Positions 5,023-20,087 of a stretch of DNA of 64,000 nucleotides are shown in pieces; positions within the stretch are counted from its first letter, which is position 1; each line of letters starts with the position of its first letter. The notes below the pieces were generated by a model. That model did no database searches. It was not told the DNA's origin and saw nothing but the letters and a program-made list of their open reading frames with translations. Where the stretch lies: the NCBI GenBank assembly GCA_944392335.1, contig CALXWJ010000021.1, forward strand, positions 62,001 to 126,000, written 5' to 3'. The DNA comes from an uncultured Clostridia bacterium. Its GTDB lineage: Bacteria; Bacillota; Clostridia; UBA1381. A program made the translations under genes and the position numbers.

Positions 5023-5604
5023 TTAATCAATATCCTTTACTATTTCTTCAAGGCATTCAATAAGCGCATCGTCAAAGTGTCCGCATTTATTTTCTCTGAG
5101 CATCTTAAATATTGTTTCCCGAGACAAGCCCTTACGGTAAACCCTATCCGAATCCAGAGCATCAAATACATCGCATATAGACACTATCCGGACATACATA
5201 GGAATATCTTTTTTTCCCTCATATCCGCCGCCGTCTATCCGTTCATGATGATACCTGCATAGGTTAAATACAAACTCATACTCTTTGCCGCATAACTCGC
5301 CCTCCACCGCTTCGGCTCCCAAACGGGTATGCATTCTTAAGTTATCCATCTCATTTGCCTGCAGCGATGAATCCTTTGTCAGCAGAGAGTTATCAACAAA
5401 CAGCTTTCCGATATCATGGAGAAGAGTTCCCTTGCATATCCAGCCTATCTCGTCATCGTTATAGCTTGTTATACCTAATCTGTTCGTTCTGCGAAGCATC
5501 CTGTGGGCAAGTTTTTTTACACGTAGGCTGTGATAATATGTTTCCGAATGGACTTTTTTAAGTTCATCCATAAGACTATCCAGCTTTTCTGTCATCTTTA
5601 TCAT
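5023..5604 (-). CDS. HD-GYP-like metal-dependent phosphohydrolase (candidate c-di-GMP phosphodiesterase)
   Basis: A 193-residue soluble protein. Metal-binding motifs are LLHDIGK (H63-D64) and YHHERIDGGGYEGK (H119-H120), followed by VSICDVFDALDSDRVYRK. This is the HD-GYP arrangement, with the GYP triplet read as GYE. HD-GYP enzymes hydrolyse c-di-GMP, which suits an operon with a c-di-GMP riboswitch, an EAL-like domain and a neighbouring GGDEF gene. Start: an upstream ATG at 5619 exists, but the ATG at 5604 has an AGAGGA site and overlaps the preceding stop by four bases, so it is preferred. There is no sensor or response-regulator domain. Hydrolysis of another phosphoester cannot be excluded, given the altered GYP. 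Confidence 0.8.
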   Translation of the reverse strand: MIKMTEKLDSLMDELKKVHSETYYHSLRVKKLAHRMLRRTNRLGITSYNDDEIGWICKGTLLHDIGKLFVDNSLLTKDSSLQANEMDNLRMHTRLGAEAVEGELCGKEYEFVFNLCRYHHERIDGGGYEGKKDIPMYVRIVSICDVFDALDSDRVYRKGLSRETIFKMLRENKCGHFDDALIECLEEIVKDID

Positions 5605-6545
5605 GCTTTTCCTCTCCATCTGATCTCAAAAATTTTTTTTACCGCAGATGACGGCATATGCAGTAAAAGAAAGGTTATTAGCTTATCTTTTTTTAACTTT
5701 GGATCACTGCCGATTTCTCTAAAATACTTAGCGGCTTCTTTTTTACGTCCCTCTATTATATAATGTCTGCAGCGGCGCATAGTAAACCATTCCATAACCT
5801 TTTTGATATTTTCCTTTTTTGACTCCGGTATGTCCTTATCTTCGTATAACTCAGAAACACTGTCAAAAAAACTCCAGTCCGGGTCGAAGGAATTGGCTTT
5901 TGTCGCTGTCGAGTTACCTTTAATGTATGTTGCTGTTATGCGGCTTGTAAGCACTACGGGAAAGTATGCCGCTATACGAAGGGACAGCTCAAGATCCTCC
6001 CCTATCCTGCATCCGACTGTAAATCCGCCCGTTTTATCAAATGCCGTTCGTGATATACATGTAGTTATAACAGTAAACATCTTTACAGACTTATTCTTAT
6101 AGTACTCCTCAAAAAAATTGTCCAAATATACCGTTTCTGACCGATCCTTGAAAAAACTGCATTCACTTATTGTCCTGCCGTTAACAAGCATAGTCCTGGT
6201 AAAGCTTCCGTATAAACCGGCGTCAGGATATCTTTCTGTAAGATCGCGCATTACCTCAAGATGATTTTCATGCCACACATCATCCGCATCCAAAAAGGCT
6301 ATATAGCTGCCCGTTGATGCTGTAATACCATTGTTGCGCGCTGCGCTCACACCAAGATTTGACTGGGTCATGATACGTATCTTCGGATGATCCTTATATT
6401 TTTCAAGAACCTTTCCGGTATTATCGACGGAACCATCGTTAACTATTATCAGCTCCCAGTCCTTTTCACGCTGGTTTAAAACGCTTGCTATCGCGTTATC
6501 TAAAAATTTTGCTCCGTTGTACACGGGCATGATCACTGAAAACAA
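5601..6545 (-). CDS. Family 2 glycosyltransferase
   Basis: A 314-residue GT-A enzyme. It opens with FSVIMPVYNG and contains ELIIVNDGSVDNT (first Asp of the nucleotide-sugar site), GVSAARNNGI and the DxD-type FLDADDVW. It adds a sugar to the lipid-linked repeat unit on the cytoplasmic face. Start: the open frame extends to a GTG at 6551, but that codon touches the GGGGGA ribosome-binding site; a TTG at 6545 lies 6 bases from it and is preferred. The stop overlaps the HD-GYP-like gene by four bases. Donor and acceptor sugars are unknown. Confidence 0.87.
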   Translation of the reverse strand: MFSVIMPVYNGAKFLDNAIASVLNQREKDWELIIVNDGSVDNTGKVLEKYKDHPKIRIMTQSNLGVSAARNNGITASTGSYIAFLDADDVWHENHLEVMRDLTERYPDAGLYGSFTRTMLVNGRTISECSFFKDRSETVYLDNFFEEYYKNKSVKMFTVITTCISRTAFDKTGGFTVGCRIGEDLELSLRIAAYFPVVLTSRITATYIKGNSTATKANSFDPDWSFFDSVSELYEDKDIPESKKENIKKVMEWFTMRRCRHYIIEGRKKEAAKYFREIGSDPKLKKDKLITFLLLHMPSSAVKKIFEIRWRGKA

Positions 6546-6560
6546 GCACACTCCCCCTTT

Positions 6561-7901
6561 TTAAATAAAATAAAAAATCATAAAGGCCCAGTCTATAAAA
6601 AAATCAACCGTGAACCCAAAAACTATAAAGGCAAAGTTGAAAATCAGCTGAAGTATCTTTAAATCCTCCGTTTCATAGCCGCCGGTTTTGGAAAAATGCC
6701 TCAATATACGATATACAAATACGCCGAACAGAGGTATGTATATCAACAGCGTACCCAAAACTCCGAAATTAAGCAGAGCCTGGATATATGAATTATGGCA
6801 GGCTATAGATATTACACTATAATCAATCGCCATAACCGTTATGACGCTTCCGCCTATAAGCTGACCGATAATCCCTTTTGAAAAGAATATACCCATAGCC
6901 TCTGTCCAGATGTCATAGCGGTCGGTTGTAAGCAGATCCCAGCGTCCCCGTGGAATATAAGAGAGTTTTTCGTTTATTCGTATGATCAATCCGGATATAG
7001 CCTCTATCTCTCTAAGCTGCGGAGTTGTCAAAATGACTACAACCGCAACCGCTGCCGCGACAAATACTGCTGTTAGTATTATTATGGACTTCATTCTGAA
7101 TTTAAGAATTATGTACAGTGTAAGCAATACAGCCAAAATCATCAAGGCTGAGATGCTTGCCGTCTGTACAAGCATTATCCCAAACAGCACCAATGCCGCA
7201 GCCCTGAGCCATTTGGGTATTCCCTTGACCGCAATCGCCGATACTATACATATACTGTAAAAAAGTCCGGCAAAATTAGAATCACTCAGTGCGCCGAAGT
7301 TTCTGTTAACGGTCTGGGCGCCCGCACCTGCAACATTAATATCCACCGACACATCAGTATTCGTCCAGCCGTATATACCCGAAGCAACTCCTCCGAGAAG
7401 AAAGGCATAGATAAACTTACGGAATAATCCGGGGTTATCGATGATCTTGAGCAGTATAATATAAGCAAGAGCGCAGTCAACTATTACATTAAGCCCTACC
7501 CTGTAGGATTCCAGCTGCGGCATTGCAAACAGGCTGTGAAGCATAAACACAAAGAGTGCAGGAAAATATGCCATTCTGAATTTGGTTTTAGGCAGATCCA
7601 ACAAAAATCTTAAAACCACCATATAGGAGTAAATTCTAAACACAGGCGTATCACCCAACAGCATCCTATAACGCATATACATAAAAAGAGCTGTATACAG
7701 GTAGAAATTTTCATCGAAAAAACAGACCGCTATGCAAAGGATCAAAATAACCGAGGCATAAGAGGTAAGGTCCGGCAGCGGGCCGGGGATAAGACAGCAT
7801 AAAAACCCGAGCAGAAACACTGCATCAAATATTCTGCCTCTCAATGTATTATTCCCCCGGACGTTAAGTCGGCTGCCGAGATCAACTATAATCTTGTTCA
7901 T
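6561..7901 (-). CDS. Wzy-type O-antigen/exopolysaccharide polymerase
   Basis: A 446-residue protein with about 11-12 membrane segments. The Wzy/WaaL region is seen near residues 320-400: TTDRYDIWTEAMGIF in the long external loop, then ACHNSYIQALLNFGVLGT. Such proteins join undecaprenyl-linked repeat units outside the membrane. The start overlaps the stop of the deacetylase-GT4 gene by four bases (ATGA). Together with a flippase and Wzz-like proteins this defines a Wzx/Wzy-dependent pathway. A ligase role is less likely in an organism that seems to lack lipopolysaccharide. Confidence 0.85.
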   Translation of the reverse strand: MNKIIVDLGSRLNVRGNNTLRGRIFDAVFLLGFLCCLIPGPLPDLTSYASVILILCIAVCFFDENFYLYTALFMYMRYRMLLGDTPVFRIYSYMVVLRFLLDLPKTKFRMAYFPALFVFMLHSLFAMPQLESYRVGLNVIVDCALAYIILLKIIDNPGLFRKFIYAFLLGGVASGIYGWTNTDVSVDINVAGAGAQTVNRNFGALSDSNFAGLFYSICIVSAIAVKGIPKWLRAAALVLFGIMLVQTASISALMILAVLLTLYIILKFRMKSIIILTAVFVAAAVAVVVILTTPQLREIEAISGLIIRINEKLSYIPRGRWDLLTTDRYDIWTEAMGIFFSKGIIGQLIGGSVITVMAIDYSVISIACHNSYIQALLNFGVLGTLLIYIPLFGVFVYRILRHFSKTGGYETEDLKILQLIFNFAFIVFGFTVDFFIDWAFMIFYFI

Positions 7902-9859
7902 TGAAGTAATCCTTCCACTAATCTGTCAAATTTTTCTATTTCTTTCTCATTTCCGTAATCATGGGTTTGTATATATTCACGCATTTTATCAAGGCATTTT
8001 GGATTTTCCAACACTGATTTGAGACCTTGATAAAGAGCATAATCGTTATTTTCAAAAATCAGGCCGTCGATGCCGTTTTGTATTTGCTCTCCCGCCGAAG
8101 TGTATCGCGTGACCATAGGTACAAGACCCATAATAAGCCCTTCGGTCACAACCATCGGCTTACCCTCGTGATGCGACGGGAGCAGCATTGCATCAAAGCT
8201 CTTCATATACGGTATTGGGTTTTCCCTGACCCCAATGAGATATATCACATCTTCCAATCCATAAACGGCTATAAGCTCTCTAAGCCGTTGTTCATCACGG
8301 CCCTTTCCGATGATTACCCATTTAACATTTTCTGTCAGACCATCGGCTTTCAGCTGTGCAAAAGCCCTTACAGCCCTGTCAAGCCCTTTGTGTTCAAAGC
8401 TAATCCTTGCCACTGTTAAAATTTTTAAATATCTGTTCGGATCATCAAAGGGAAAAGTAACATCCCCTGTGCTCCTGCTTCTTATGTATTCCGATGAAAG
8501 CAGGTTTGGAATAAAGTATGTCTTGTCTTTATGCTCAGGATGCTGCCGGACATATGCTAAGCGGCAGCTCTCGCTTACAAAAACAAGGGCATCCGCCTTG
8601 TCAAATGCTTTTTTATCGATTTTATAACTAAGTCCGGATTTATCATATTCGAGGTGATGCCATGAAATTTTCTTTTTAGCCTTCACCCGCGTCATAACAT
8701 AGTTAAGGCACCAGTCAAATTCATAGGCAACAGCTACGTCGTACTCCTTGCTGTTGGGAGTAGAATACCGGCATCCCTGCTTTGACATTATCTGTACAGC
8801 CATTCGTTTATTATGTTTAACTTTTTTATAATACATTCCCTGCGCTGCCGCTGCTATATAGCGTGGTGAACACAGCTTTTTAATCACATTTCCGACAGAA
8901 TACTTTTTGTGCCGCTTTCCCTGCGGCAATATATTTATCCCGGACTTTATACCGCTGATACTGCCGTTTTCATAAAACATAACATCCACATCGTATTTGT
9001 CGGTGTCAAGAGCGTTAAGAAAGTTAACCAATGATGTCATCGCCCCTCCGATATGAACCTGGATAAAGCATACAAGAAGCTTTATCCGTCTGCCGATTAC
9101 ATCCTCCAAATGCAATCCGTTTTTCTCGATCCACTCGTGTGTCACAAATGGGTGAGCCTCCGGCAGTGTATTATCTGTCAGCACTCCGTTAATATAATCG
9201 GGATGCGTCATAAGCTCAAGAGAATTGCTTATTTTTGCTTTGTCTGACCGTTCAAAATCCTGTACAGACCCGAAATAATCCGTCGTCCCTATTCGCTTTT
9301 TATCAATTTTAAGGCGTTTAATCATAAAATTAAAGATATTTTTATAAAGGCTGAATAGAGGGGAAAAGCTCCCTTTTGGAATATTTCTGCTGATACGGAC
9401 GGTTTTGAACCCATATTTTTTTAAAAGCTTTCTTATTTCTGTATAAACGCTTAAATATACATGAGTATAATTGTGTGAGTCGGCATGCATAAGTGTGAAG
9501 CCCATATCTATATATTTTTTGATTTGCGCTTCGACCTCGCAGCGTATGGCCTTTCTTGCGGATCTATCGAGGTATATACGCGCACGCAGCGGTATATGGA
9601 AGGTACCGGTAAAACAACCCCTGTCATCGCACAGGTCTGAGCATGCACACTCATTTGTAAGAGGTCTGCCCTCGGTGAGATTGATATGCAATCCAACCTT
9701 GTCAAAAAAACCCCTCTCCCGTGCAAGTTGTACCGCAGCCTCGCAGCCCGGCATATTAACCATTATGGTAGTACGGTTTATAAGACCCTGTTCAAAACAG
9801 TCGGCTATTGCACTGCTGACACTGTCGGAATAGCCGAAATCGTCTCCGTTTATAATCAT
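7898..9859 (-). CDS. ChbG/YdjC-type carbohydrate deacetylase fused to a family 4 glycosyltransferase
   Basis: A 653-residue two-domain protein. Residues 1 to about 255 are a ChbG/YdjC deacetylase: INGDDFGYSD (D6-D7), GLHINL with H58, and MHADSHNYTH with H125 and H129, matching the Asp-His-His metal set of the family. Residues about 260-653 are a GT4: the N-terminal lobe has QVHIGGAMTSL, and the C-terminal lobe has KILTVARIS, IGKGRDEQRL and SHHEGKPMVVTEG with the GT4 E-x7-E pattern. A GGAGGAG site lies before the ATG. No stop or frameshift separates the domains. The natural inference is one enzyme that adds a sugar and de-N-acetylates a neighbouring or the same amino sugar. I know of no characterised example of this fusion. 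Confidence 0.85.
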   Translation of the reverse strand: MIINGDDFGYSDSVSSAIADCFEQGLINRTTIMVNMPGCEAAVQLARERGFFDKVGLHINLTEGRPLTNECACSDLCDDRGCFTGTFHIPLRARIYLDRSARKAIRCEVEAQIKKYIDMGFTLMHADSHNYTHVYLSVYTEIRKLLKKYGFKTVRISRNIPKGSFSPLFSLYKNIFNFMIKRLKIDKKRIGTTDYFGSVQDFERSDKAKISNSLELMTHPDYINGVLTDNTLPEAHPFVTHEWIEKNGLHLEDVIGRRIKLLVCFIQVHIGGAMTSLVNFLNALDTDKYDVDVMFYENGSISGIKSGINILPQGKRHKKYSVGNVIKKLCSPRYIAAAAQGMYYKKVKHNKRMAVQIMSKQGCRYSTPNSKEYDVAVAYEFDWCLNYVMTRVKAKKKISWHHLEYDKSGLSYKIDKKAFDKADALVFVSESCRLAYVRQHPEHKDKTYFIPNLLSSEYIRSRSTGDVTFPFDDPNRYLKILTVARISFEHKGLDRAVRAFAQLKADGLTENVKWVIIGKGRDEQRLRELIAVYGLEDVIYLIGVRENPIPYMKSFDAMLLPSHHEGKPMVVTEGLIMGLVPMVTRYTSAGEQIQNGIDGLIFENNDYALYQGLKSVLENPKCLDKMREYIQTHDYGNEKEIEKFDRLVEGLLQ

Positions 9860-9904
9860 ACCGCTCCTCCCTTCACAAATGATATGCCGTCTGTCCGGCT
9901 GTCT

Positions 9905-10897
9905 CTATTTACGCAGTGTGAATATGCGCCCTATAATTACCGCGCTGTATGGCGCTACGTAAAATAAGGCATAAACAATTCTGCGCTTTATCGGTATTCC
10001 ATGTCTTTTTATCATGCTTTTATAGCTGCTCCTGTAAATTTCAATATATTTTCCGCTGACGCAGTCGGTATCTCTTTCTTTGGCGTTAAGCCGCATTTGC
10101 TCATTGTAACGAAGGATAATATCCGTACAGATTTTCTCACGGGTACGAAGTACCTGAAGGGGTTTATTTTCCCGTATAAAAAAATCGATTCGTTCCTTAT
10201 ATGCTTTTAACCAATCATACCTATGCGGATTGTTTTTAAGCCTTTTTGCTATATTGTCCATTATGCTGCCGCTATGCTGAAAATAATAGTACAGCCTTTC
10301 GCTTGTAAATGCAGTTTTATGCGCATTATATACAGCACGGTAAACAGTAAATTCATCCTCGTTCCATACTCCGTCAGGAAACCTGATATCTTTAAATATC
10401 CCGCATCTGAATATCTTTGCGCATGCAAACGATTTCAGGTCATAGCCAAGAAGAGCCTTTTCGCTGTCCGTTTCATAAACACGGGGATTATTTTCGGTAT
10501 CGGAAAAGACTCCGTCTTCTCCCTTTTCATAGCCGCACTGCGCAATATCACAGCCTAACCCTTCACAAATAGCAATCATTTTTTCAGCGTAATCAGAACG
10601 GATAAAATCATCTGAGTCAAGAAAGGATATATAATCATCCTCCCCCGCTGTTTTAAGGGCAAGGGTCAGCCCGACGTTTCTTGCATCTGACAATCCCCCG
10701 TTTTCCTTATGTATTACATGTATATTTTTGTACATACGTGCATATTCGTCACATATTTCGGGGCACCCGTCGGGGGAACCGTCGTCTACAAGAATAATCC
10801 CGACTCTTTCATACGTCTGCTCGAGCACCGAACGTATACAGCGGTGTATATATCTTTCAACATTATATACAGGTATTATAAAATACAGGTTTTTCAT
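9905..10897 (-). CDS. Family 2 glycosyltransferase (EpsJ/CpsJ-like)
   Basis: A 330-residue GT-A enzyme: YFIIPVYNVERYI, GIILVDDGSPDGCP, NGGLSDARNVGL and FLDSDDF are the canonical GT2 blocks. The C-terminal part (KRLKNNPHRYDWLKAY and later) resembles capsule glycosyltransferases that transfer galactose, galactofuranose or similar sugars, but specificity cannot be read from sequence. A GAGGAG site precedes the ATG. The metallophosphoesterase gene ends 14 bases upstream and the next gene starts 45 bases downstream, the widest gap inside this operon but still without an evident promoter. Confidence 0.87.
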   Translation of the reverse strand: MKNLYFIIPVYNVERYIHRCIRSVLEQTYERVGIILVDDGSPDGCPEICDEYARMYKNIHVIHKENGGLSDARNVGLTLALKTAGEDDYISFLDSDDFIRSDYAEKMIAICEGLGCDIAQCGYEKGEDGVFSDTENNPRVYETDSEKALLGYDLKSFACAKIFRCGIFKDIRFPDGVWNEDEFTVYRAVYNAHKTAFTSERLYYYFQHSGSIMDNIAKRLKNNPHRYDWLKAYKERIDFFIRENKPLQVLRTREKICTDIILRYNEQMRLNAKERDTDCVSGKYIEIYRSSYKSMIKRHGIPIKRRIVYALFYVAPYSAVIIGRIFTLRK

Positions 10898-10911
10898 ACT
10901 TTTTCACTCCT

Positions 10912-11766
10912 CTACCTGTCAAGAGTTATCAGTACGACCTCCGGTTGGTTAAAGTATCTTTTTTTACTCGCATTTTGGTCGCATCCGCCGCTTACAATCA
11001 TGGCCGCTGCCCCCTCGGAATAAAAGCCGTAATCGTATGCGGGAAAGATGCTGTTGTCGTATATGTCATGACCTATCACACCGCCAAGAAACGGAAGACG
11101 GATTATACCTCCGTGCATATGCCCCGACAAAATCAGGTCAACTCCGATATTTTTAAGATATGGATACATATCCGCACGGTGATTAATAAGAATGGAAAAT
11201 TCCTCGCTGTCCTCCGGAATAAATCCCTCTATTTTGCTGATAACATCCTCCCGGACCTCTTCCTCCCAAAGTTCATTTTTCCCGCTGTCTTTGGCGCCTA
11301 TTAGCCAGATTATATCTCCGTCCTTTTTTATCTTTTTATAGTCATTTTCAAGCCAGACTATACCGACGTCCCAAAGATTGCCTATGATATGTTCATACTC
11401 CTCATTCTGCGATTCATGATTTCCCGAGACAGCATACATAGGTATTGTATCGCCGACGTTTTCTGCAATCTTTTTCGTTTCCTCAAAGCTATAGCCGGGA
11501 AGCTGAACCATATCGCCGCAAAATATTATAACATCCGGGCTTGTATTCTCTATATGCGCCAATATCTGTTCTGCAAAGGGTGCTTCATGCAGGTCGGCTA
11601 TTAAAAATATTTTATATCCGTCAAAATTGTATGGGACGTCATTATGCCGGAATGTATATCGCGTGAGCTTTACGGTTTTATTCATAGCTGTATTTACAGC
11701 AAGCGCTGCTGCTGACGCAAGAATAAGGGCTAATACGATAATAACCAACGTTTTTATTTTTTTCAC
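10912..11766 (-). CDS. Membrane-anchored metallophosphoesterase (YkuE/YaeI-like)
   Basis: A 284-residue protein with one N-terminal membrane segment (residues 6-25) and a calcineurin-type fold outside or at the membrane. All metal motifs are present: D58-x-H60, G84-D85, GNHE at 115-118, and GHMHGG with H216 and H218. YaeI/YkuE relatives hydrolyse phosphodiesters or pyrophosphates of lipid-linked intermediates, so recycling of undecaprenyl pyrophosphate or trimming of UDP-sugar or lipid products is a reasonable guess. The GTG start overlaps the stop of the Wzz-EAL gene by four bases (GTGA), so translation is coupled. It is an unusual member of a Wzx/Wzy operon. Confidence 0.85.
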   Translation of the reverse strand: MKKIKTLVIIVLALILASAAALAVNTAMNKTVKLTRYTFRHNDVPYNFDGYKIFLIADLHEAPFAEQILAHIENTSPDVIIFCGDMVQLPGYSFEETKKIAENVGDTIPMYAVSGNHESQNEEYEHIIGNLWDVGIVWLENDYKKIKKDGDIIWLIGAKDSGKNELWEEEVREDVISKIEGFIPEDSEEFSILINHRADMYPYLKNIGVDLILSGHMHGGIIRLPFLGGVIGHDIYDNSIFPAYDYGFYSEGAAAMIVSGGCDQNASKKRYFNQPEVVLITLDR

Positions 11767-13973
11767 TCTTGCATTTCCTTTCTTTTAAGTTCTTCCGGTT
11801 TACCATAGAAGTAGCCTTGTTTATAATCAAAACCCAGTCTTGTAATAAGCGCATCCTGAGAACCTGTTTCAACGCCGCAGATACAAGATTTTATCCCGTG
11901 ATTTCTGCACTCATCAATTATGTGTATGAAGTTTGTTTCCATATCCTTCTCAGCCTTTATGAAGTCCTCGTCGCTGGAAGCATAAATGTCATTATTAAGG
12001 CTGTCAAGACTCATTTTAATATATTTCGGCTCAAGTACCCTAAGTATCTCTTGCTCTTCATACGTATTTTCAAACCTGTCTATGCATATGCTTATACCCA
12101 TCTTTTCAAGCAAGGTTATATCCTCAAGCGTAGACGCAATGTCATATACCTCAAGCTCAAGGCATACACACTCCGGGGGAATATGATTTTCGGATATATG
12201 CTTTATAATTATATCGTTTAACGCAAAGTCCCGAATCTGTCCGGAGGGACAGTTGACATGCACAACGGGAGCCCTTCCTTTTTTCTTTCCCATATATGCA
12301 ATATCGGCACAAACATTTTTGATTATCCAGTCGTTAAGCTGCCAGAATATTCCAAAGTCTGATATGCAGCCTATTATCTTTGCCGGAGACACCATACCAA
12401 GCTCTTCGTTGCGCCATCTGATAAAGATTTCAAGATGTTCTCTTTCGGTTTTGCCGCTGCTTACCATCGGTTGATACACAAGAGTAAATTCATCAAAATC
12501 CTTTAGATACTGATCATATAAAAGCTGATGAAGTCTGTCCATACCCGATACGTCTATTTCTGCCTTTGCTTCCTTTTGATCATCCTCTGCCTTTGTTTTT
12601 GCCATGATGTTTTTCAGCAGTTCTCTTAGAAGCACTGCAATAACCAGCACCCCGAATGTAAGCACTATCATGAATAGCGCTATGAGGTTAACAGGTCTGT
12701 CCGCAGACACCTCCGGAAGAATCAGGTACTGCAGATCACTGTTGATCTCCATGTTGAACAGCTCGCTTATTGAAAGGTTTGCAATTTCGCTGTACTCATT
12801 TGAAAGAATAAGTATTTCCGAAAAAATTTCATCATTTTCCGCAATCAGACGATCCTTTGTTTCACGAGGAACAGTGTCGTTTGTATAATCGTCTATTATA
12901 GCATTGTAATAGTTTATGGTATGCATGGCATCAGTAGCTGCTGCCGCGCGGTCCGCATAAGACAAAACAATATTGTCATATGTGTTTATATGTTCCTCTA
13001 TGTTGTAATCCTCGATCACATCCTGATCACGGTTATTGGATGCGTCAATATCGGTTTGTGTGCGATGGGCCTGGTTATAAAGCCCTGCCGCCTTATAAGG
13101 ATCGTAAAATGTTGTGATCTCATTTTTGTAATTGTCTGCAATCGTGTTGTCGACCATCATGGTTTCAGTAAGATCCTGTACCTTTGTCTGATAGCTTTTT
13201 ATTATCATCTCAGTATCCTTTGCAAGGTTTCCCGCACGAATATTACCATAATATTTTGCATGCTGAACATCCCTTATATGCTCATACAGTTCCATGATCT
13301 CGGCAAAGGAATACCCCGTACGTTTTGACCGGAACTCGGGAAAATCGGCGGCAAGGGTTTCCAGATAGGCAATAATCGAGTCAAGATTTTCGCTCATGGA
13401 ATTGGAAATCTCAATATAGTCGGCAGAGGAATTGTCCGCGGTTTTTGCAAAATCGGGTATTGTCCTTTTGTTGTAGTATTTATCCAGCAAAAAATCATCG
13501 TATTCTTTTATAATGCTGCTGAACATTTTTACCCCAAACTCATCTCCCAAAGATGCATCATATGTAAACTTCATTTCATATTCTGTTGTGACCGCATCGT
13601 ATTTTTCGCCTAACAGGGCGGCAGATTCGGAAACCTCCTTGTCTAAGTCGGTAATTACCTTTTCAATGGTAATATCCTGACGTATACCCTTAACGCTCAA
13701 TTTTTTGCCGGCATCCAGCCCAAGATTTTCAAGAGCCCCCTGTATAACAACAGGGTTTTGGATTTCATAAGGATCCAATTCACTTACCCCATCGGGTGCA
13801 AGCCCCTCTGCAGCTCCGTCGTAATTATATTTAAAGCCGAGCATGCAAGTGTATGTTTGCATTGAGTTTACGGCATAAACGGTCAAAAGCCCGACTGCAA
13901 GAGAAAGGGCAATCATATGCAGAATGTATCGGCGAATAATATTGATTATATCTCTTATACTTAAATATTCCAT
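11763..13973 (-). CDS. Wzz-like membrane protein fused to a degenerate EAL domain (candidate c-di-GMP receptor)
   Basis: A 736-residue protein. Membrane segments near residues 17-37 and 434-456 enclose a large helix-rich external region, the topology of Wzz chain-length proteins. After the second segment comes a cytoplasmic EAL domain, from about residue 490 to the end. Kept EAL residues: E515 (EIF in place of EAL), the Asn of VNCPSG, the first Glu of LELE, D632, K653, E702 and Q719. Changed: the second Asp of DDFG is R633, loop 6 reads DRFENTYEE, and the Glu of the usual TE pair is Val. Loss of the metal-site Asp and loop 6 predicts weak or no hydrolysis, hence a binding role like LapD or FimX. 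Start: the ATG at 13973 has GGAGG 8 bases upstream; a further ATG at 14012 is less likely. Confidence 0.85.
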   Translation of the reverse strand: MEYLSIRDIINIIRRYILHMIALSLAVGLLTVYAVNSMQTYTCMLGFKYNYDGAAEGLAPDGVSELDPYEIQNPVVIQGALENLGLDAGKKLSVKGIRQDITIEKVITDLDKEVSESAALLGEKYDAVTTEYEMKFTYDASLGDEFGVKMFSSIIKEYDDFLLDKYYNKRTIPDFAKTADNSSADYIEISNSMSENLDSIIAYLETLAADFPEFRSKRTGYSFAEIMELYEHIRDVQHAKYYGNIRAGNLAKDTEMIIKSYQTKVQDLTETMMVDNTIADNYKNEITTFYDPYKAAGLYNQAHRTQTDIDASNNRDQDVIEDYNIEEHINTYDNIVLSYADRAAAATDAMHTINYYNAIIDDYTNDTVPRETKDRLIAENDEIFSEILILSNEYSEIANLSISELFNMEINSDLQYLILPEVSADRPVNLIALFMIVLTFGVLVIAVLLRELLKNIMAKTKAEDDQKEAKAEIDVSGMDRLHQLLYDQYLKDFDEFTLVYQPMVSSGKTEREHLEIFIRWRNEELGMVSPAKIIGCISDFGIFWQLNDWIIKNVCADIAYMGKKKGRAPVVHVNCPSGQIRDFALNDIIIKHISENHIPPECVCLELEVYDIASTLEDITLLEKMGISICIDRFENTYEEQEILRVLEPKYIKMSLDSLNNDIYASSDEDFIKAEKDMETNFIHIIDECRNHGIKSCICGVETGSQDALITRLGFDYKQGYFYGKPEELKRKEMQE

Positions 13974-13974
13974 A

Positions 13975-15420
13975 TCAGATACCTCCGACCTTTGTCTGCT
14001 GTATGCTGGCAAGGAGCTTCTTTTTGCGGCGCAGCATGACTCTGTCCTGTATGACGCTTATGGCAATACAGATTATAAACATAACTACAGCTCCGAGCAG
14101 GAATGCTCCTCCCGCGCCTACTATCAAATCTGTAGAAAATACCTCCCGTTCCGTAACATCTGCGGTTATATAATTTTCATTTGTTTTGTTATAATATTCC
14201 TCCACAACGCTTATTGCCCTGTCTGCAAGATCCTCGTATTCGGTTTTAAGCTCATCCAGATATTCCTCGCATCTTGCACAAAGTCTTTCGTATTCCTCGC
14301 CGCTTTGGGCAACACTTCCGTAATGTGAAATTTCCTGATTCAAAAGCTCTATTTCAGCGCCGTATTCGGCGGTCATCTCGTCAGCGTCGTGTTTCTGTTC
14401 CACGATAGTATCAAAAGCGGTTTTTGGACGCGCCTGATACAGTCCCTGGGTCTCGTCCCGTACAACATTGATAAGATTTTCGGTAAATGTATGGTCGTAG
14501 TTGTCCATAGCATACTTGTTTACCAATGCCCTGTCGCTGTATTTGCTGAACTGGAGAGAGTTGTTTTCAAGATTAACAAACAGCTTGTTTAGATTGATCT
14601 CTGCATCACGGGAAATGGCTGATGATTCAATAAAGCTTGCTATGCCGTCAAGTTTATTTGTAACAAGCAGTTCATAATCGCCTATGATATCCTTCAATGC
14701 CGTATCTTCTCCAACCGAAACAAAACCCGGTGATTTGTTCTCAAGTTCGTTAAGATAATTTATGGTGGCATTAACTCTTACCCTGTACTGCTGCACCATT
14801 TCCTTATAATCATATCCAGACAGATCGTCCATAGCCACCAAAGCCTTAAACCCGCCTATGCCTCCCGAAAATTCAGCTATACGATCCCTGTTGACCTCAA
14901 CAAGCGCTTCGAGGAAATCGCTACTGTAATCCGGAGAAAACAGTCTTTTTAATAAGCTGTTATTGCGATAATCATGCATTTGTATGTATGTTATTCGATA
15001 CTCATTAGCAACATAACTGTAATCGTTGCCTTCGCTGCGGGCAGATGATACGGATGAGCCGGCAGAGTTTTTAAGATAGCTGTACAAAAAGAGCTTATCC
15101 TTTATGTCCTCTACGGTATAGCTTTGATATTTCCCGTCCTCCTGCATAAGCTTCAGAGCCGCTTCAATTTTTTGGTCGTCTATAAGATCGTATATCGTGA
15201 ACCTTTCTCCGTCCGGATAGCAGGAGGACGCGATCTCGGGATATGTAAGCACAATGTGCACCCTTGCGGAAGCATATTCGCTGTATACGACCTTCCCGCA
15301 GTAAAACAGGGCAAATAATGCTCCTACCACGAACATAACAAGGCCAAAGCGTTTAAATTTTACCAGACGTTCCCTGTAAAATGCCCTTCGCAGGCTGTTG
15401 ACATGTTTAATTATTTTCAC
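13975..15420 (-). CDS. Wzz/polysaccharide co-polymerase-like membrane protein
   Basis: A 481-residue protein with one membrane segment near residues 25-47 and another near 443-467 (GGAFLLGAVVMFIICIAIS), enclosing about 390 external residues rich in coiled-coil helix (for example AEYGAEIELLNQEISHY). This is the Wzz/PCP topology, although the Wzz domain itself is only weakly recognisable. Such proteins set chain length by assembling around Wzy. It ends one base before the start of the Wzz-EAL gene, so the two are translationally coupled and may form a hetero-oligomer. No BY-type tyrosine kinase gene, the usual partner in Firmicutes, is present. Confidence 0.72.
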   Translation of the reverse strand: MKIIKHVNSLRRAFYRERLVKFKRFGLVMFVVGALFALFYCGKVVYSEYASARVHIVLTYPEIASSCYPDGERFTIYDLIDDQKIEAALKLMQEDGKYQSYTVEDIKDKLFLYSYLKNSAGSSVSSARSEGNDYSYVANEYRITYIQMHDYRNNSLLKRLFSPDYSSDFLEALVEVNRDRIAEFSGGIGGFKALVAMDDLSGYDYKEMVQQYRVRVNATINYLNELENKSPGFVSVGEDTALKDIIGDYELLVTNKLDGIASFIESSAISRDAEINLNKLFVNLENNSLQFSKYSDRALVNKYAMDNYDHTFTENLINVVRDETQGLYQARPKTAFDTIVEQKHDADEMTAEYGAEIELLNQEISHYGSVAQSGEEYERLCARCEEYLDELKTEYEDLADRAISVVEEYYNKTNENYITADVTEREVFSTDLIVGAGGAFLLGAVVMFIICIAISVIQDRVMLRRKKKLLASIQQTKVGGI

Positions 15421-16808
15421 TTAACGGACACCTCCTCTTCTTGGTCTGCAACTGTCTTTATCTTAAAATCGTCTTCTCCTTCTGCCGATGACTTTAAAAA
15501 AATTATTTTCGTAGTTAAAAGTATTATCTTTAAATCAAGCAGAGGCGAATAGTGAGTTATATAATACAGATCGTAATATGTTCTGTCATGAATATATGTG
15601 GAATACCTACCGTATACATGAGACAGACTCGTCAGACCTGCCTTTACCTTGAACCTGTCATCGTAACGTTCTATCTCATTTTCAAACTGTTCAACAAATA
15701 CGGGTCTTTCAGGTCTTGGCCCAACTATGCTCATATCACCTTTAAGTATGTTTATGATCTGCGGCAGCTCATCAAGCCTCATTGCCCGGAGTATCTTTCC
15801 TACCTTTGTTATCCTCGGGTCGTTCTTTTCGGCAAATTTAGGGCCGCTGAGCTGTTCGGCATTAGGTACCATCGTTCTGAATTTATAAATTTCAAATTCA
15901 CGCTTGCCGCGTGTGTAACGGGTCTGCTTGTAAATTAACGGGCCGGGGGACGTCACCTTTATTGCCGCTGCTATTACCCCCATAGGGATAATAGCCACTA
16001 TTAATCCCAAGGCGGCAAAAACAATATCCATCGCCCGTTTTAAAAACAGTTCCGCCGTATTAAGCTCTGTTTTAGGCATATACAGCGTGAGAATATCGTC
16101 AAAGCATACTATCTTTGAGTTGGTTTTACCCACATCTACCATTTCGGGAACAATAAACAAATCCATATTCAGCTTAAGTGCGGCGTTGACCGCGGTATGG
16201 TATATCTCAGTGCTGAATCCGTTAAGGACGCATACGGCATCAAAAAGCGGAAACTGTTCATCTACAAAACGGCTGAATTCCTCAGGCGTTTTATTTTCAA
16301 TATTTTCATACCATGAGCCGTACTTTCTCAAAACGCCGTATTTTATCCTCTTCATACGATGAAAGTTAGACCGGTCAATATCTATTATTAAAAGCCTTGG
16401 TTGACTGTAACAGCTTTTGCTGATTTTTTCAAAAAGACAATCAGCTCCGAAAACACAGAGAATATTCACAAATGAAAATACAGCATCAAATGCCAGACGT
16501 ACACCGTCTCTAAACAGAACAAGGTTTATTATACACATGATAACAAACATATATATCGCCGAAAGGATTGTTGATACGGTCTTTTCATACAGACCTGAAA
16601 TAAGCGCCGAATATTTTTCCAAACACAACATAAAGCAGAGCATTCCACATATTTCTATTATATTTAAAAACATCATGCTGCGCATTCCGATTGGCCCTTG
16701 TTCGGGCATAATAATCCAAAACAAGACCGCAGTTATCAAGAGTACGGCGCAGTTGATCAAAAAACTGTATTTACCTTCTGTGCGCATATTACGCGTTTTC
16801 TTTTTCAT
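15417..16808 (-). CDS. Polyprenyl-phosphate sugar-1-phosphate transferase (WcaJ/EpsL-type initiating enzyme)
   Basis: A 463-residue protein. The N-terminal half carries about four or five membrane segments and a CoA-binding-like central region (residues about 140-250). The C-terminal domain is the bacterial sugar transferase core: a membrane re-entrant helix, KRAMDIVFAALGLIV, SPGPLIYKQTRYTRGKREF, KFRTM, then RLDELPQIINILKGDMSIVG and PRPERPVF. It starts the repeat unit by moving a hexose-1-phosphate from UDP-sugar to undecaprenyl phosphate. It overlaps both neighbours by four bases. It is the second gene of the operon. Confidence 0.92.
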   Translation of the reverse strand: MKKKTRNMRTEGKYSFLINCAVLLITAVLFWIIMPEQGPIGMRSMMFLNIIEICGMLCFMLCLEKYSALISGLYEKTVSTILSAIYMFVIMCIINLVLFRDGVRLAFDAVFSFVNILCVFGADCLFEKISKSCYSQPRLLIIDIDRSNFHRMKRIKYGVLRKYGSWYENIENKTPEEFSRFVDEQFPLFDAVCVLNGFSTEIYHTAVNAALKLNMDLFIVPEMVDVGKTNSKIVCFDDILTLYMPKTELNTAELFLKRAMDIVFAALGLIVAIIPMGVIAAAIKVTSPGPLIYKQTRYTRGKREFEIYKFRTMVPNAEQLSGPKFAEKNDPRITKVGKILRAMRLDELPQIINILKGDMSIVGPRPERPVFVEQFENEIERYDDRFKVKAGLTSLSHVYGRYSTYIHDRTYYDLYYITHYSPLLDLKIILLTTKIIFLKSSAEGEDDFKIKTVADQEEEVSVK

Positions 16809-17674
16809 TTTTTTACATTCTCCTTTTTTATGCAGTTAATCGTCCTTTCCCGGATTATTCTGAACAATTTGGAAAACATAATTATATAAGGCCTTGAATA
16901 TACCAATGCTCTAAATAACATATTATCCATTCCCCATACTGGTAACGCCTCTTTTAGTGTCCCCGATACTCGTCTGTTTGCTGAAAGCCTTTTTGAAAAG
17001 GATAATCCGCCTCCTGTCAGGGAGGTATCGCCGCGGGAATAGTGATACAATATGTCATTTGTAAAATAATAGCTGTTCACGTTATGAAAAAGCCGTATAC
17101 AAAAATCCAAATCCTCAGCAGTTTTCAGCATGGTATTGAACCTAAGCCCACTTATAAGGGATGTTCTAATCAGCTTCATACAGACATGATTCATATTTAT
17201 ACCTATCATCATCCGAATATAAACCCTGCGCAGTTTTTCGCCCTTTAAAAGAATATTATTCCTAAATGCCCCCTTAGGCAGGATATGACGTCCCCCCGGC
17301 ATATCGTATATAAAGCGGCACTGGACTACATCGGCGCCATGCTGTACAGCACAACCATATAAGACTTCAAGCATGTTTTCCTCCCATGCGTCATCTGCGT
17401 CCAAAAAGGCAGTATACTCAGCATCAAGCATTGCAAGAGCCTTGTTTCGTGCCTGTGCAACACCGCCGTTTTTTTTATTAATAATGTATACAAACCGGTT
17501 GTCCTTATCTGCAAATTTTTTTATGATATCGTTACTGCCATCAGTAGACGAATCGTTTACGATAATAGCATGCCACTGTGAAAAGGTTTGATTTACAAGG
17601 CTTTGAAGGCATCTTTCGATATTATCCTGCTTATTATAAACTGGCACTATAACCTGTATTTTATATTGTTTCAT
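16805..17674 (-). CDS. Family 2 glycosyltransferase, first gene of the exopolysaccharide operon
   Basis: A 289-residue GT-A enzyme: QVIVPVYNKQDNI, AIIVNDSSTDGS, NGGVAQARNKAL and FLDADDAW. Start: the frame stays open to 17767, but that extension runs through the terminator and riboswitch; an ATG at 17674 with a GGAG site 7 bases upstream gives the normal GT2 N-terminus. Its leader carries the c-di-GMP-I riboswitch and intrinsic terminator, so this gene and the eleven behind it are expected to respond to c-di-GMP. The stop overlaps the sugar transferase start by four bases. Confidence 0.9.
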   Translation of the reverse strand: MKQYKIQVIVPVYNKQDNIERCLQSLVNQTFSQWHAIIVNDSSTDGSNDIIKKFADKDNRFVYIINKKNGGVAQARNKALAMLDAEYTAFLDADDAWEENMLEVLYGCAVQHGADVVQCRFIYDMPGGRHILPKGAFRNNILLKGEKLRRVYIRMMIGINMNHVCMKLIRTSLISGLRFNTMLKTAEDLDFCIRLFHNVNSYYFTNDILYHYSRGDTSLTGGGLSFSKRLSANRRVSGTLKEALPVWGMDNMLFRALVYSRPYIIMFSKLFRIIRERTINCIKKENVKK

Positions 17675-17702
17675 TACACATCTCCAATCTGCAGCAGCAT
17701 TA

Positions 17703-17743
17703 AAATTAATAAAGGCTGCAACATTAAAATATATGTTGCAGCC
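17703..17743 (-). terminator. Intrinsic terminator of the riboswitch expression platform
   Basis: On the minus strand an 11-bp perfect stem (GGCTGCAACAT / ATGTTGCAGCC, 17743-17714) with an 8-base loop is followed by TTTATTAATTTTA. The first six bases of the 5' arm (GGCTGC) are also the 3' end of the c-di-GMP aptamer, so the two structures compete. Ligand binding should then block the terminator (ON switch); the direction is inference. Confidence 0.85.
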
Positions 17744-17815
17744 GATCGAGCATATGATATAAATCACTTAGCCATCTAAACTTTGCGTCTCCGCCTTTCG
17801 ACGAATTTGCCTATT
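17738..17815 (-). ncRNA. Cyclic di-GMP-I (GEMM-I) riboswitch
   Basis: Minus-strand sequence shows the GEMM-I core in order: GGCAAA (17811-17806), a hairpin UUCGUC/GGCGGA capped by a GAAA tetraloop (17799-17796), GACGCAAAG (17789-17781), and a second helix bearing the tetraloop receptor GCUAAG with its UAUGC partner (17754-17750), ending in CGGCUGC. The receptor keeps its closing pair as G-C where the consensus has C-G, a compensated change. It sits between a strong promoter and a terminator in the leader of the exopolysaccharide operon. I read it by eye; a covariance-model search against Rfam RF01051 would confirm it. Confidence 0.92.
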
Positions 17816-17834
17816 AAAATAACCATATATATTT

Positions 17835-17863
17835 ATATTACCATTTATTTCAATAGTTGTCAA
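17835..17863 (-). promoter_or_regulatory. Promoter of the exopolysaccharide operon
   Basis: Minus strand: a perfect TTGACA (17863-17858), a 17-base spacer and TAATAT (17840-17835). Transcription should begin near 17828, some 15 bases before the riboswitch core. It lies in the 128 bases between the GGDEF gene stop and the riboswitch core, so the operon has its own start site. Confidence 0.85.
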
Positions 17864-17929
17864 TACAAAACGCAAATTTTGTCGTATATTATTTAAGTGT
17901 TCTTTAAACTCCGGACAAAAAACATCTGA

Positions 17930-19312
17930 CTAAAAAGCAATAATCCCGGAGCTGCCGATTATATAATTGTCACGTCCGCGTTTCTTAACAGTGTAAAGCA
18001 GACGATCCGTCTCCCTATATAAATCCTCCACCGATTTATCAGATGCAGCAGGCACAACACCTGCACTGCAGGACAGGCTGTGATTATTTACACTGATGGA
18101 ACGTATTTTTTCCATAAACAGCTTCATATCCGACTCCAGCTTTTCTTCGGATACAGGCATATAAATAAAGACTGCAAACTCATCCCCGCCGATCCTGCCT
18201 ATAAAGCCGTTTTCCCCGAAGATTTCTTTGAGATGATGGGCAACAAACATCAAAATACGATCCCCTTCGGGATGACCGCAGCTGTCGTTAATCTCTTTAA
18301 AATAATCTATATCAACCATGATAAAATATCCGTAAAAATCCCCCTCCGGGTCTTGTTTGTCCAAAACCTTCCTGCACGCCTGAAAGAAAGCTCTTCGATT
18401 CATAACATCTGTCACCACATCCATCCCCGCTTCGTGATCCATATACATAGAATATTTACGGTTAAGCATCAAAAACACTGCAACCAAACACATTAACGAG
18501 AGTATTCCCACAATAAACTGTATTTGCAGATGAATAAGGTCGGAATAAACTGCATTGGTCAAATTAATTCCGTTTTGGCTGAGGACTCTGAGCATCCTGT
18601 TTATAAAATATACCCCTACTGCCAAAGACAGAAAAACAGTCACCAATATGCTTACAACTAAAACAAGAGTGTGATAGCTCCCTCCCAACCGGAGACGCTG
18701 CGCCTTCTCCACTTTGCAACAAAATTTCTTCCAAGCATCGGATTGCTCCCATCTCCACAGCAGCACGACAATAACCGATGTAAATATATCTGTAATATAA
18801 TTATTAACATTATAAATTCCGTCTAAAGCGTGCAACGCACTATAGCCGGAATCCGGAAACAGCACCCCCATAAAGCTATATACCAAAAAAGAGTGGATAA
18901 ATCTCCCGAGGAATGAGACGATAAATATCCAAAGTCCCTTAAAAGACATCCGTTTAGCTGCCATATATAAAATTCCTATCAACAGCCCAAAAAGAATCCT
19001 GCTGCCCACACTAAACAATATACTTTCCAAGGGGAAGCCGCTCATGCTGGGAGAAAACAGCTGATCTATATCCGTTACATAATGAGCTCCGGCTTTCCAC
19101 ATGCTGGATATCCCGAATACAGCGCCTAAAATAACCGCTTCGGGCAAGCCGATCATTGCGCCTGCCAGCATAACAGGAATATAGGCAATAGTCATGGAAA
19201 TAGGTTCTATATGTATATACCCAATAAATGAAAATGACATCAGCATTTCTATCGATACTAAAATCAGCAGCAAATAAAAACGCATATTTAAATTTTTAAA
19301 TATAATTTTCAT
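17930..19312 (-). CDS. Membrane diguanylate cyclase (ECF-S-like membrane domain plus GGDEF)
   Basis: A 460-residue protein. The N-terminal part has about five or six membrane segments and resembles ECF transporter S-component folds (IPVMLAGAMIGLPEAVILGAVFG). A further pair of segments flanks a short external loop near residues 218-280. The cytoplasmic GGDEF domain begins near residue 300 with DVVTDVMNRRAF; VDIDYFKEIND and an intact GGDEF at 375-379 predict active c-di-GMP synthesis. The inhibitory I-site RxxD is absent (GENGFIGRIGGDEF), so simple product inhibition is unlikely. It lies directly upstream of the riboswitch-controlled operon on the same strand. The membrane region may sense a small ligand. 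Confidence 0.9.
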   Translation of the reverse strand: MKIIFKNLNMRFYLLLILVSIEMLMSFSFIGYIHIEPISMTIAYIPVMLAGAMIGLPEAVILGAVFGISSMWKAGAHYVTDIDQLFSPSMSGFPLESILFSVGSRILFGLLIGILYMAAKRMSFKGLWIFIVSFLGRFIHSFLVYSFMGVLFPDSGYSALHALDGIYNVNNYITDIFTSVIVVLLWRWEQSDAWKKFCCKVEKAQRLRLGGSYHTLVLVVSILVTVFLSLAVGVYFINRMLRVLSQNGINLTNAVYSDLIHLQIQFIVGILSLMCLVAVFLMLNRKYSMYMDHEAGMDVVTDVMNRRAFFQACRKVLDKQDPEGDFYGYFIMVDIDYFKEINDSCGHPEGDRILMFVAHHLKEIFGENGFIGRIGGDEFAVFIYMPVSEEKLESDMKLFMEKIRSISVNNHSLSCSAGVVPAASDKSVEDLYRETDRLLYTVKKRGRDNYIIGSSGIIAF

Positions 19313-20081
19313 GATTCACAAACGCCCTTTCACATTACATTATTTGCAATATTAAAAACAATGTCCTCTTGAGTAATTTCTTTAATTCATTTTATATTAC
19401 AAATACAAACAGAATATACAGTATAAACCTGATATTTTTTATGCATATAATACATCAATGAACATGCAGTAAAATAAAATACTTTCCGCTTATGTCACTA
19501 TTTCAGACACAGTGAAGAAAACGCTTCTATGCTTCGCCATATCACATACAGCCATACGATATTTATACAAAACTGCCTCACTTTAAATATGTTTTTCAAT
19601 AAGGGCTTGTACAGTCATTCAACAAGCGCAAAAGCGCAGGCAAAGCTTGCGCTGTAGCACTCCCACTGATCGCCTTATGGAACCGGACACCGATAATGAC
19701 AGGGACACTTTGTCTGCAGTTATATTCCATATTATATCAAGCAAGTACCAATTTATCAATGGAAATTTTGCAAAAATAAACATTTTTTAGATAACAAAAA
19801 ATAAAATTAACAAAATAAGACAAAATATTACAAGCATATTTATGTTAAATAATAAAGCAAAAAACGTAATTACAACAAAAAAATTTCATTGGTGTAGCTA
19901 TTTGTACTATGGGGACATAAAAAATAATCCAAAATTTATATTTTGATAAGGGCTTGTCCCGCAATTTAATGATGACAAGAACGCAGCATAACTGAGCTTG
20001 TAATCAGTGGGAGATCATGCTCACACTGATTACAAATATGCGCCACGCCGCCGATAATGGCAGGGGACAACTTGTGCGCAG
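19313..20081. other. Large intergenic region between the GGDEF and FAD oxidoreductase genes
   Basis: This 769-base gap contains repeat copies C and D. The 218 bases between them (19727-19945) and the 285 bases next to the GGDEF gene are very AT-rich and show no reading frame, RNA motif or clear terminator. No convincing promoter for the GGDEF gene was found, although one must lie here or upstream. GC content drops visibly from the exopolysaccharide side to the glycan-utilisation side. Confidence 0.6.
19598..19726 (+). repeat. Dispersed structured repeat, copy C (decayed)
   Basis: Recognisable left end (AATAAGGGCTTGT, then GTCATTCAACAAGCGC) and right end (CCGATAATGACAGGGACA, then GCAGTTATATT). 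The central hairpin has lost its conserved loop: only CTGTAGCACTCCCACTGATC remains. The decay and the nearby copy D suggest an old insertion. Confidence 0.7.
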
Positions 20082-20087
20082 CTATAT
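19946..20087 (+). repeat. Dispersed structured repeat, copy D
   Basis: Complete member. Left end ATAAGGGCTTGTCCC, the central hairpin TGTAATCAGTGGGAG / CTCACACTGATTACA around ATCATG, a CGCCGCCGATAATGGC segment, and tail GGGGACAACTTGTGCGCAG. The right end overlaps the stop codon of the FAD oxidoreductase gene (20082-20084), so the element supplies the end of that gene. Confidence 0.82.

Follow-up and report, generated by a model that had tools for sequence, protein, structure and literature searches.

A candidate self-contained c-di-GMP circuit in a Wzx/Wzy-type surface polysaccharide locus of an uncultured Clostridia bacterium

RESULTS

Organization of the locus

The window, meaning the whole 64-kb stretch of DNA that we analyzed, carries on its minus strand a gene for a GGDEF protein, then a sigma-70-type promoter, a c-di-GMP-I riboswitch and a 12-gene operon of the Wzx/Wzy type (Table 1). 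An earlier note on this DNA had proposed a complete c-di-GMP circuit within one polysaccharide locus. That observation held up, more strongly than it had been put. We recovered every part that it named, in place and on a single strand, and the EAL domain, the HD-GYP protein, the class I riboswitch and one GGDEF protein do lie inside 14.3 kb, as its figure of 14 kb implied. The GGDEF gene sits ahead of the riboswitch operon and outside its transcription unit. A longer, GTG-initiated reading frame for the first GT2 gene begins within the aptamer, and the HD-GYP gene overlaps the gene before it by 19 nt. The annotated operon genes include no BY-kinase of the Wzc/CpsD kind, either as a C-terminal domain or as a separate tyrosine kinase. 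Defense-system models gave no relevant match.

Table 1. Features of the polysaccharide locus (positions in the 64-kb window)
Feature	Position	Strand	Remarks
Membrane diguanylate cyclase (predicted), 460 aa	17930..19312	-	~6 TM segments, intact GGDEF 375-379
Sigma-70-type promoter TTGACA-17-TAATAT	17835..17863	-	Directly ahead of riboswitch
c-di-GMP-I riboswitch aptamer (RF01051)	17734..17821	-	64.4 bits vs gathering score 35
Intrinsic terminator	17714..17743	-	5' arm GGCUGCAACAU is the aptamer 3' end; predicted ON-switch expression platform
GT2 glycosyltransferase, operon gene 1	16805..17674	-	ATG at 17674
Initiating phosphoglycosyl transferase (polyprenyl-P)	15417..16808	-	
Polysaccharide co-polymerase without cytoplasmic domain	13975..15420	-	Wzc-like extracytoplasmic fold, 2 TM
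Co-polymerase with C-terminal degenerate EAL; predicted c-di-GMP receptor	11763..13973	-	ATG at 13973
Calcineurin-like metallophosphatase, membrane-anchored	10912..11766	-	Conserved in all complete relatives
GT2 glycosyltransferase	9905..10897	-	
YdjC-like deacetylase fused to GT4 glycosyltransferase	7898..9859	-	YdjC part absent from several relatives
Wzy-type polymerase / O-antigen ligase-like protein	6561..7901	-	Slightly below Pfam cut-off
GT2 glycosyltransferase	5601..6551	-	
Stand-alone HD-GYP-type phosphodiesterase (predicted)	5023..5619	-	Trinuclear metal ligands complete
Wzx-type flippase (Polysacc_synt)	3502..5010	-	
LicD-family transferase	2691..3479	-	Last conserved gene of the operon

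The leader has the architecture of an ON switch

The riboswitch proposed in the earlier note is a member of RF01051. It was the sole Rfam match in the 64-kb window and the sole RF01051 match in the genome, and it retains the invariant GGCAAA core of the aptamer. The order promoter, aptamer, terminator recurred in all six loci that carry the riboswitch, and the promoters of the other five were similar. In each of the six, the terminator starts 10 to 11 nt before the end of the aptamer; a comparable hairpin was found at 18 of 400 random positions. The 5' arm of the terminator thus overlaps the last 10 to 11 aptamer nucleotides, making the expression platform mutually exclusive with the ligand-bound aptamer. 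Since this arm is formed by the aptamer's own 3' end, each of the six leaders is predicted to act as an ON switch.

A co-polymerase carries a degenerate EAL domain

The protein with the EAL domain had been described as Wzz-like. The degenerate EAL domain, at about residues 474-736 of the fusion, stood up to analysis (110 bits in Pfam), but the rest of the protein is better described as a polysaccharide co-polymerase of Wzc size. The Pfam Wzz family (PF02706) matched neither co-polymerase of the window; one relative (L051:8758-10155) scored 28.2 against a cut-off of 25.5. In the fusion, as in its sister protein, a large extracytoplasmic domain lies between two TM segments. Because its N-terminal half gave no direct sequence match to solved co-polymerases, we relied on fold comparison. 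The top eight Foldseek matches of the sister protein were Wzc and other co-polymerases. VIA-align superimposed 207 of its residues on Wzc (Z 10.4, rmsd 6.7), but the Wzc rows were tied with unrelated long-helix proteins, so this support is only moderate and not decisive alone. Fold and relatives together allow us to identify the N-terminal half of the fusion as a co-polymerase with moderate confidence.

The EAL co-polymerase fusion is common to 13 genomes. Twelve of the EAL homologues are 53 to 100% identical to the window protein, and the other (L110) is 26% identical. Q501, E515, R519, N574, E606, D632, K653, E702 and Q719 are invariant in all 13; seven of these, all but E606 and D632, are ligand-pocket residues. 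The EAL fold matches the c-di-GMP complexes of FimX and LapD (Z 21.8-25.7). Whether an inactive EAL domain binds c-di-GMP has been attributed to the ExLxR motif (PMC10333796). We located the catalytic positions by aligning the window protein to active MorA. In the DD motif, the second Asp is lost throughout, being replaced by R, K, Q or N; the Glu of AEGVE is lost in 12 of 13 domains, with Cys in its place; and in ELTE, V or G stands for the second Glu. Across all 13 homologues, the domain is therefore predicted to be locked into binding c-di-GMP without cutting it. With the ON-type leader present in six loci, the earlier suggestion that two sensors act at different levels holds as a prediction.

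Could the riboswitch instead be the sole c-di-GMP sensor, with the EAL domain a structural or protein-interaction module that has lost nucleotide binding? Certain inactive EAL proteins do work without binding c-di-GMP. Loss of EAL activity has been discussed (PMC10333796), and in most members here F stands in the middle of the ExLxR motif. We nevertheless regard this explanation as unlikely, since all nine tabulated pocket ligand or metal residues are invariant across the 13 sequences while catalytic positions have changed, and the EAL domain is retained even in operons that lack any riboswitch. That the domain is still a phosphodiesterase with an altered metal site, making the fusion an enzyme and not a receptor, is very unlikely: the catalytic set still includes E515, N574, E606, D632, K653 and Q719, but the substitutions in DD, AEGVE and ELTE argue against catalysis, as does the separate, complete HD-GYP protein already encoded in the operon.

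c-di-GMP genes are concentrated in the locus

We counted c-di-GMP components genome-wide by family searches that covered GGDEF, EAL, HD-GYP, PilZ and the c-di-GMP-I riboswitch; the genomes compared are drafts or MAGs. The window genome (G000, 3.64 Mb) has one EAL match, one HD-GYP match (HD_5/HD-GYP), one c-di-GMP-I riboswitch and two GGDEF matches, and the search gave no PilZ match. In G048, which is 99% complete, the four GGDEF, EAL and HD-GYP matches (one GGDEF, one EAL, two HD_5) all lie inside the related locus, and in G074 both GGDEF and both EAL matches lie in the locus or just beyond it. In G000, G048, G049, G072, G073, G075, G076 and G077, no EAL match other than the co-polymerase turned up in the genome. 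The genomes of L098 (Roslinia) and L099 have seven and four GGDEF matches, respectively, none of them within the retrieved locus region.

c-di-GMP is normally a global bacterial signal. Because nearly all recognizable c-di-GMP machinery of the window genome falls in one surface polysaccharide locus, our results suggest that in this gut-type Clostridia genome it privately serves a single polymer. This privacy is not absolute, since the second GGDEF protein, which also lacks an I-site, is encoded outside the locus and is probably active.

The full set of parts is not universal among related loci. A neighborhood comparison, which had been proposed as a check on co-occurrence of the five parts, left the EAL co-polymerase as the constant element and the others as variable. 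Riboswitch, EAL co-polymerase, HD-GYP protein and linked GGDEF protein occur together in three loci (the window, L104 and L108); the remaining loci lack the riboswitch or the linked GGDEF gene, and three have an upstream HD-GYP-GGDEF-histidine-kinase module instead. As neither the adjacent diguanylate cyclase nor the riboswitch is universal, the wiring varies while the EAL co-polymerase stays. In L102, L103, L105 and L109, permissive cmscan searches revealed no hidden riboswitch, and there was no histidine-kinase end upstream. The locus itself is patchy, being present in one of four genomes of its own genus and about 5 of 70 of the family; we considered its horizontal spread as a unit but did not adopt that reading. 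In sister loci of relatives such as L060, a degenerate GGDEF domain (GSDQF) replaces the tyrosine kinase on the co-polymerase.

This variability, with GGDEF linkage and riboswitch not kept in every relative, might be taken to mean that c-di-GMP genes of a sparse network, regulating other things such as motility or adhesion, have clustered here by chance. We consider that highly improbable. Uniform-placement estimates of such clustering were about 2e-7 for G000, 3e-6 for G048 and 6e-6 for G074, the EAL domain is covalently joined to the co-polymerase, and the HD-GYP gene lies in the operon in nine species.

The enzymes predicted to make and degrade c-di-GMP

The GGDEF protein has a weak ECF-transporter-S-like match in its TM segments. 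Its substrate residues are intact (metal Asp, N/D pair and GGDEF; VDIDYFKEIND..GD). The I-site, which serves product inhibition and is optional for diguanylate cyclases, was correctly called absent, since the RxxD position, five residues upstream, reads GENG. RxxD is missing from five of the six locus-linked GGDEF proteins; the sixth (L100) has both an RAKD I-site and an HD-GYP protein. We found no clean pattern across the linked proteins in which loss of the I-site is traded against presence of HD-GYP.

The protein previously called HD-GYP-like scored above the cut-off for both PF01966 and PF13487 and keeps all metal ligands, with GYE replacing GYP. ExxxH, HDIGK, H, HHERIDGGGY and D are preserved in all nine homologues, including the Glu of the trinuclear site. 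Five of the nine operons with HD-GYP are controlled by the riboswitch. An HD-GYP gene inside a riboswitch-driven operon in five species would build negative feedback into the operon's anatomy, as had been proposed; the accompanying argument that feedback compensates for the missing I-site is weak, because L100 has both and the second GGDEF protein of the window genome lacks an I-site too. A signal other than c-di-GMP, such as 3',3'-cGAMP, is very improbable: a phosphodiesterase for 3',3'-cGAMP is among the relatives of HD-GYP (5z7c match), but the guanine-binding N..D pair, which is altered in Hypr enzymes that make cGAMP, is intact in the GGDEF protein (NDSCGHPEGD), and the aptamer retains its core.

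DISCUSSION

We consider it reasonably probable that one surface polysaccharide of the Wzx/Wzy type is governed by a c-di-GMP circuit that is largely self-contained. The upstream membrane GGDEF protein would make c-di-GMP in response to some signal. Binding of c-di-GMP to the nascent leader would hold the 3' end of the aptamer, and because the bound aptamer retains that end, the terminator hairpin would be blocked and transcription would enter the 12-gene operon. One product would be a co-polymerase built like Wzc, with an inactive EAL domain in place of the tyrosine kinase; c-di-GMP on this domain would switch co-polymerase oligomerization and hence polymerization or export. Polymer would then be made only as long as the signal persists, and the HD-GYP product would degrade c-di-GMP, giving delayed negative feedback.

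Individual elements of this circuit resemble known systems. According to the excerpted text of PMC4125290, Listeria Pss (pssA-E, PssE) is likewise a Firmicute polysaccharide operon with its own inactive c-di-GMP receptor and with clustered diguanylate cyclase (DGC) and phosphodiesterase (PDE) genes, but its receptor is an I-site GGDEF protein, its pathway is of the synthase type, and its DGC/PDE operon lies elsewhere; that text mentions neither a riboswitch nor a co-polymerase fusion. The Bacillus cereus Pel system (PelD, CdgF, CdgE) also combines a DGC, a PDE and an inactive receptor for post-translational control of one polymer, whereas PelD is a degenerate GGDEF protein with I-site binding, the polymer is synthase dependent, and the genome encodes eight c-di-GMP enzymes (PMC7112168, in which the word riboswitch does not occur). 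In Alg44, a co-polymerase-type subunit likewise bears a receptor domain for c-di-GMP, but this is a PilZ domain in the alginate synthase pathway, and Alg44 is not a Wzc-type chain-length protein (PMC8461298). In E. coli, NfrB/DgcJ likewise dedicates a specific DGC to one exopolysaccharide synthase; there, contact between proteins provides the specificity in a cell with 12 DGCs and 13 PDEs (PMC8669469), whereas the window genome has almost nothing else.

The fusion protein itself shares with Wzc two TM segments flanking a big extracytoplasmic domain and a single C-terminal cytoplasmic regulatory domain. Wzc is a tyrosine autokinase, whereas the fusion has a degenerate EAL domain and no kinase is found among the annotated operon genes. 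FimX and LapD have the same inactive EAL fold, which binds c-di-GMP in those proteins and is predicted to do so here, but they are GGDEF-EAL pairs acting in type IV pili and adhesin proteolysis, whereas the window protein has a lone EAL domain on a co-polymerase. The terms Wzx and chain length are absent from a review on c-di-GMP control of exopolysaccharides (PMC8461298). Our searches of open-access literature brought up no comparable EAL/co-polymerase fusion.

Most work on c-di-GMP has been done in genomes that encode dozens of enzymes and in which specificity is difficult to explain. Here, a single 17-kb locus makes it possible to study together how c-di-GMP is made, degraded and sensed by RNA and by protein. 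The locus also provides a connection that can be tested, at the protein level, between Wzx/Wzy-type assembly and c-di-GMP, through a co-polymerase that elsewhere is run by tyrosine phosphorylation. Extending this to a whole class of proteins is more tentative, and we put it forward as a possibility that we slightly doubt: a class of co-polymerases may use c-di-GMP, through a dead EAL domain or, in sister loci, a dead GGDEF domain, instead of the tyrosine phosphorylation cycle of Wzc, with the locus traveling together with its own parts for synthesis, degradation and RNA sensing. If so, c-di-GMP would be the private messenger of one polymer where other c-di-GMP biology is scarce.

A riboswitch-led polysaccharide operon

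The window belongs to contig C21 of a 3.64-Mb draft assembly that is 99.5% complete. Twelve minus-strand genes follow the riboswitch, with intergenic gaps of −19 to +45 nt. When rechecked on the sequence, the coordinates and GGDEF position reported in the earlier note proved correct. Intergenic repeats of one family, with an internal palindrome (TGTAATCAGTGGGAGATCATGCTCACACTGATTACA-like), flank the locus on both sides and may be mobile or have a regulatory role.

Features of the locus and of related loci (window positions unless a locus is named)
Feature	Position	Strand	Description
GGDEF protein	17930-19312	minus	460 aa, ~6 membrane segments, GGDEF intact
Promoter	17863-17835	minus	TTGACA-17-TAATAT, between GGDEF gene and riboswitch
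c-di-GMP-I riboswitch	17821-17734	minus	RF01051, directly ahead of the operon
Operon genes 1-4		minus	GT2; initiating phosphoglycosyl transferase; co-polymerase; co-polymerase with EAL
Operon genes 5-8		minus	metallophosphatase; GT2; YdjC-GT4; Wzy-like polymerase
Operon genes 9-12		minus	GT2; HD-GYP; Wzx-type flippase; LicD
Intergenic repeats	1457-1559, ~2512-2660, 19595-19700, 19942-20086, 24572-24739		
Second GGDEF protein of the genome	L003:295-1974 (contig C15)		GGDEF intact, no I-site
Degenerate-GGDEF co-polymerases	L060:7769-9700		also L057, L059, L095, L096, L093 and others
Secreted-type protein genes near riboswitch	L084:4080-6119, L054:10997-13570, L055:1432-3981		

The order promoter, aptamer, terminator was found in all six riboswitch loci. 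In each, the 5′ arm of the terminator overlaps the last 10 to 11 nt of the aptamer model and uses the conserved CUGCAA, and the hairpins (−14 to −24 kcal/mol) are followed by a poly-U tail; of 400 positions drawn at random from the region, 18 passed a similar test. Since the ligand-stabilized aptamer and the terminator are mutually exclusive, this architecture predicts an ON switch.

The EAL co-polymerase as a predicted c-di-GMP sensor

A profile search of the genome contigs with a four-member alignment recovered 13 loci. We aligned 13 fusions of a co-polymerase to an EAL domain with MorA as the reference. Nine pocket residues, including the E and R of ExLxR, were invariant. In every fusion, R, K, Q, or N takes the place of the DD pair's second Asp. 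The Glu of AEGVE has become Cys in 12, and V or G replaces the second Glu of ELTE. Sequence identity among the fusions was similar in the EAL and membrane halves, which argues against decay of the EAL domain. The predicted model of the fusion (mean pLDDT, 79.5) matched EAL structures, including c-di-GMP-bound FimX and LapD (Z, 21.8 to 25.7).

With moderate confidence, we regard the adjacent sister protein as a Wzc-type co-polymerase: the top eight Foldseek matches to its model were Wzc and other co-polymerases, VIA-align matched it to Wzc at a Z of ~10, level with unrelated long-helix proteins, and one homologue exceeds the Pfam Wzz cutoff. Sister loci of the family encode a degenerate GGDEF domain (GSDQF, GSEQF, or GVGQF) fused to a co-polymerase at the same place as the EAL domain, likewise in tandem with a second co-polymerase. 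On this evidence, the EAL domain occupies the position of the Wzc tyrosine kinase; no kinase gene was found among the operon genes.

Predicted synthesis and degradation enzymes

The HD-GYP ligands (Glu and His, HD, Lys, His, HH, and Asp) were conserved in all nine sequences, and the GGDEF protein retains its metal-, substrate-, and guanine-binding residues. Its membrane part (residues 19 to 181) bears a weak likeness, below the cutoff, to ECF transporter S components and might sense a vitamin-like ligand. From the missing I-site, the earlier note had reasoned that limitation relies on the operon's own HD-GYP-like enzyme. The absence is confirmed in the window, and among the six locus-linked GGDEF proteins five are without the site, but the reasoning is only suggestive, because the protein linked to locus L100 does carry an I-site.

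c-di-GMP parts across whole genomes

Whole-genome searches of the window's own genome placed its single EAL, HD_5/HD-GYP, and RF01051 matches, and one of two GGDEF matches, inside the locus, and found no PilZ match. The two HD proteins ranked next look like RNase Y and a fusion of NadD to YqeK. The second GGDEF gene lies far from the locus. In a relative, G048 (99% complete), the sole GGDEF, the sole EAL, and both HD_5 matches fall within the corresponding locus; for G074, both GGDEF matches and both EAL matches lie within or just beyond it, and for G078 the two EAL matches and two of the three GGDEF matches do. Eight genomes have no EAL-domain match other than the EAL co-polymerase. Under uniform placement, the clustering probabilities are ~2e-7 (window genome), 3e-6 (G048), and 6e-6 (G074). 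These are rough values, because many causes can bring related genes together. Such near-complete concentration of the c-di-GMP toolkit in one locus appears to be new.

A conserved putative sensor with changing inputs

The relatives are Clostridia, chiefly from animal-gut metagenomes, the closest being "Candidatus Roslinia caecavium" (key protein 74% identical). From GT2 to LicD, the genes mostly keep their order, the divergent L110 being the exception. The HD-GYP gene lies between the final GT2 gene and the flippase (or LicD) gene in nine operons, the window's among them, and is absent from the L103 and L105 operons. The riboswitch immediately precedes the first GT2 gene in the window, L098 (Roslinia), L099, L104, L108, and L044 (genome G049); it was not found upstream of the remaining loci, four of which were also searched with permissive settings. 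Directly upstream of three loci that lack the riboswitch (L100, L107, and the joined L106 and L123), HD-GYP, GGDEF, and hybrid histidine kinase proteins are encoded, the HD-GYP protein of L100 being a response regulator. Genome G075 carries the same module, with its sole GGDEF, away from the locus. Immediately downstream of L104 and L108 lie two genes, one for an EAL protein that also has a weak GGDEF and one for a GGDEF protein. The operon tree groups the kinase-type loci with L101, L103, and L105 (support, 95/99) and sets them apart from the riboswitch type.

Input wiring therefore varies around a constant EAL co-polymerase. Of the complete circuit proposed in the earlier note, that protein was the constant part, but the arrangement of riboswitch, HD-GYP, and linked GGDEF was not uniform.

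L044 (G049 contig C56) is an operon remnant with large internal deletions and an intact promoter and riboswitch, in a genome with no HD-GYP match and only a marginal GGDEF match; this state may reflect decay or an assembly artifact. In G020, G040, and G050, a c-di-GMP-I riboswitch precedes a gene for a large, apparently secreted protein, adjoining a tandem co-polymerase operon without EAL.

Known systems and a proposed mechanism

Polysaccharide operons carrying their own inactive c-di-GMP receptor include those of Listeria PssE (PMC4125290) and Bacillus cereus PelD (PMC7112168). NfrB represents a local c-di-GMP circuit (PMC8669469), and Alg44 a receptor on a co-polymerase-type subunit (PMC8461298). 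The open-access papers searched described no comparable system; an EAL domain on a Wzc-type protein, and RNA and protein sensors within one polysaccharide operon, both appear to be new.

We propose that a putative input signal would act on the GGDEF protein, which would make c-di-GMP. The nucleotide would allow terminator read-through and hence synthesis of the operon proteins, and, bound to the EAL domain, would gate co-polymerase action. The HD-GYP protein would then bring c-di-GMP down after a delay.
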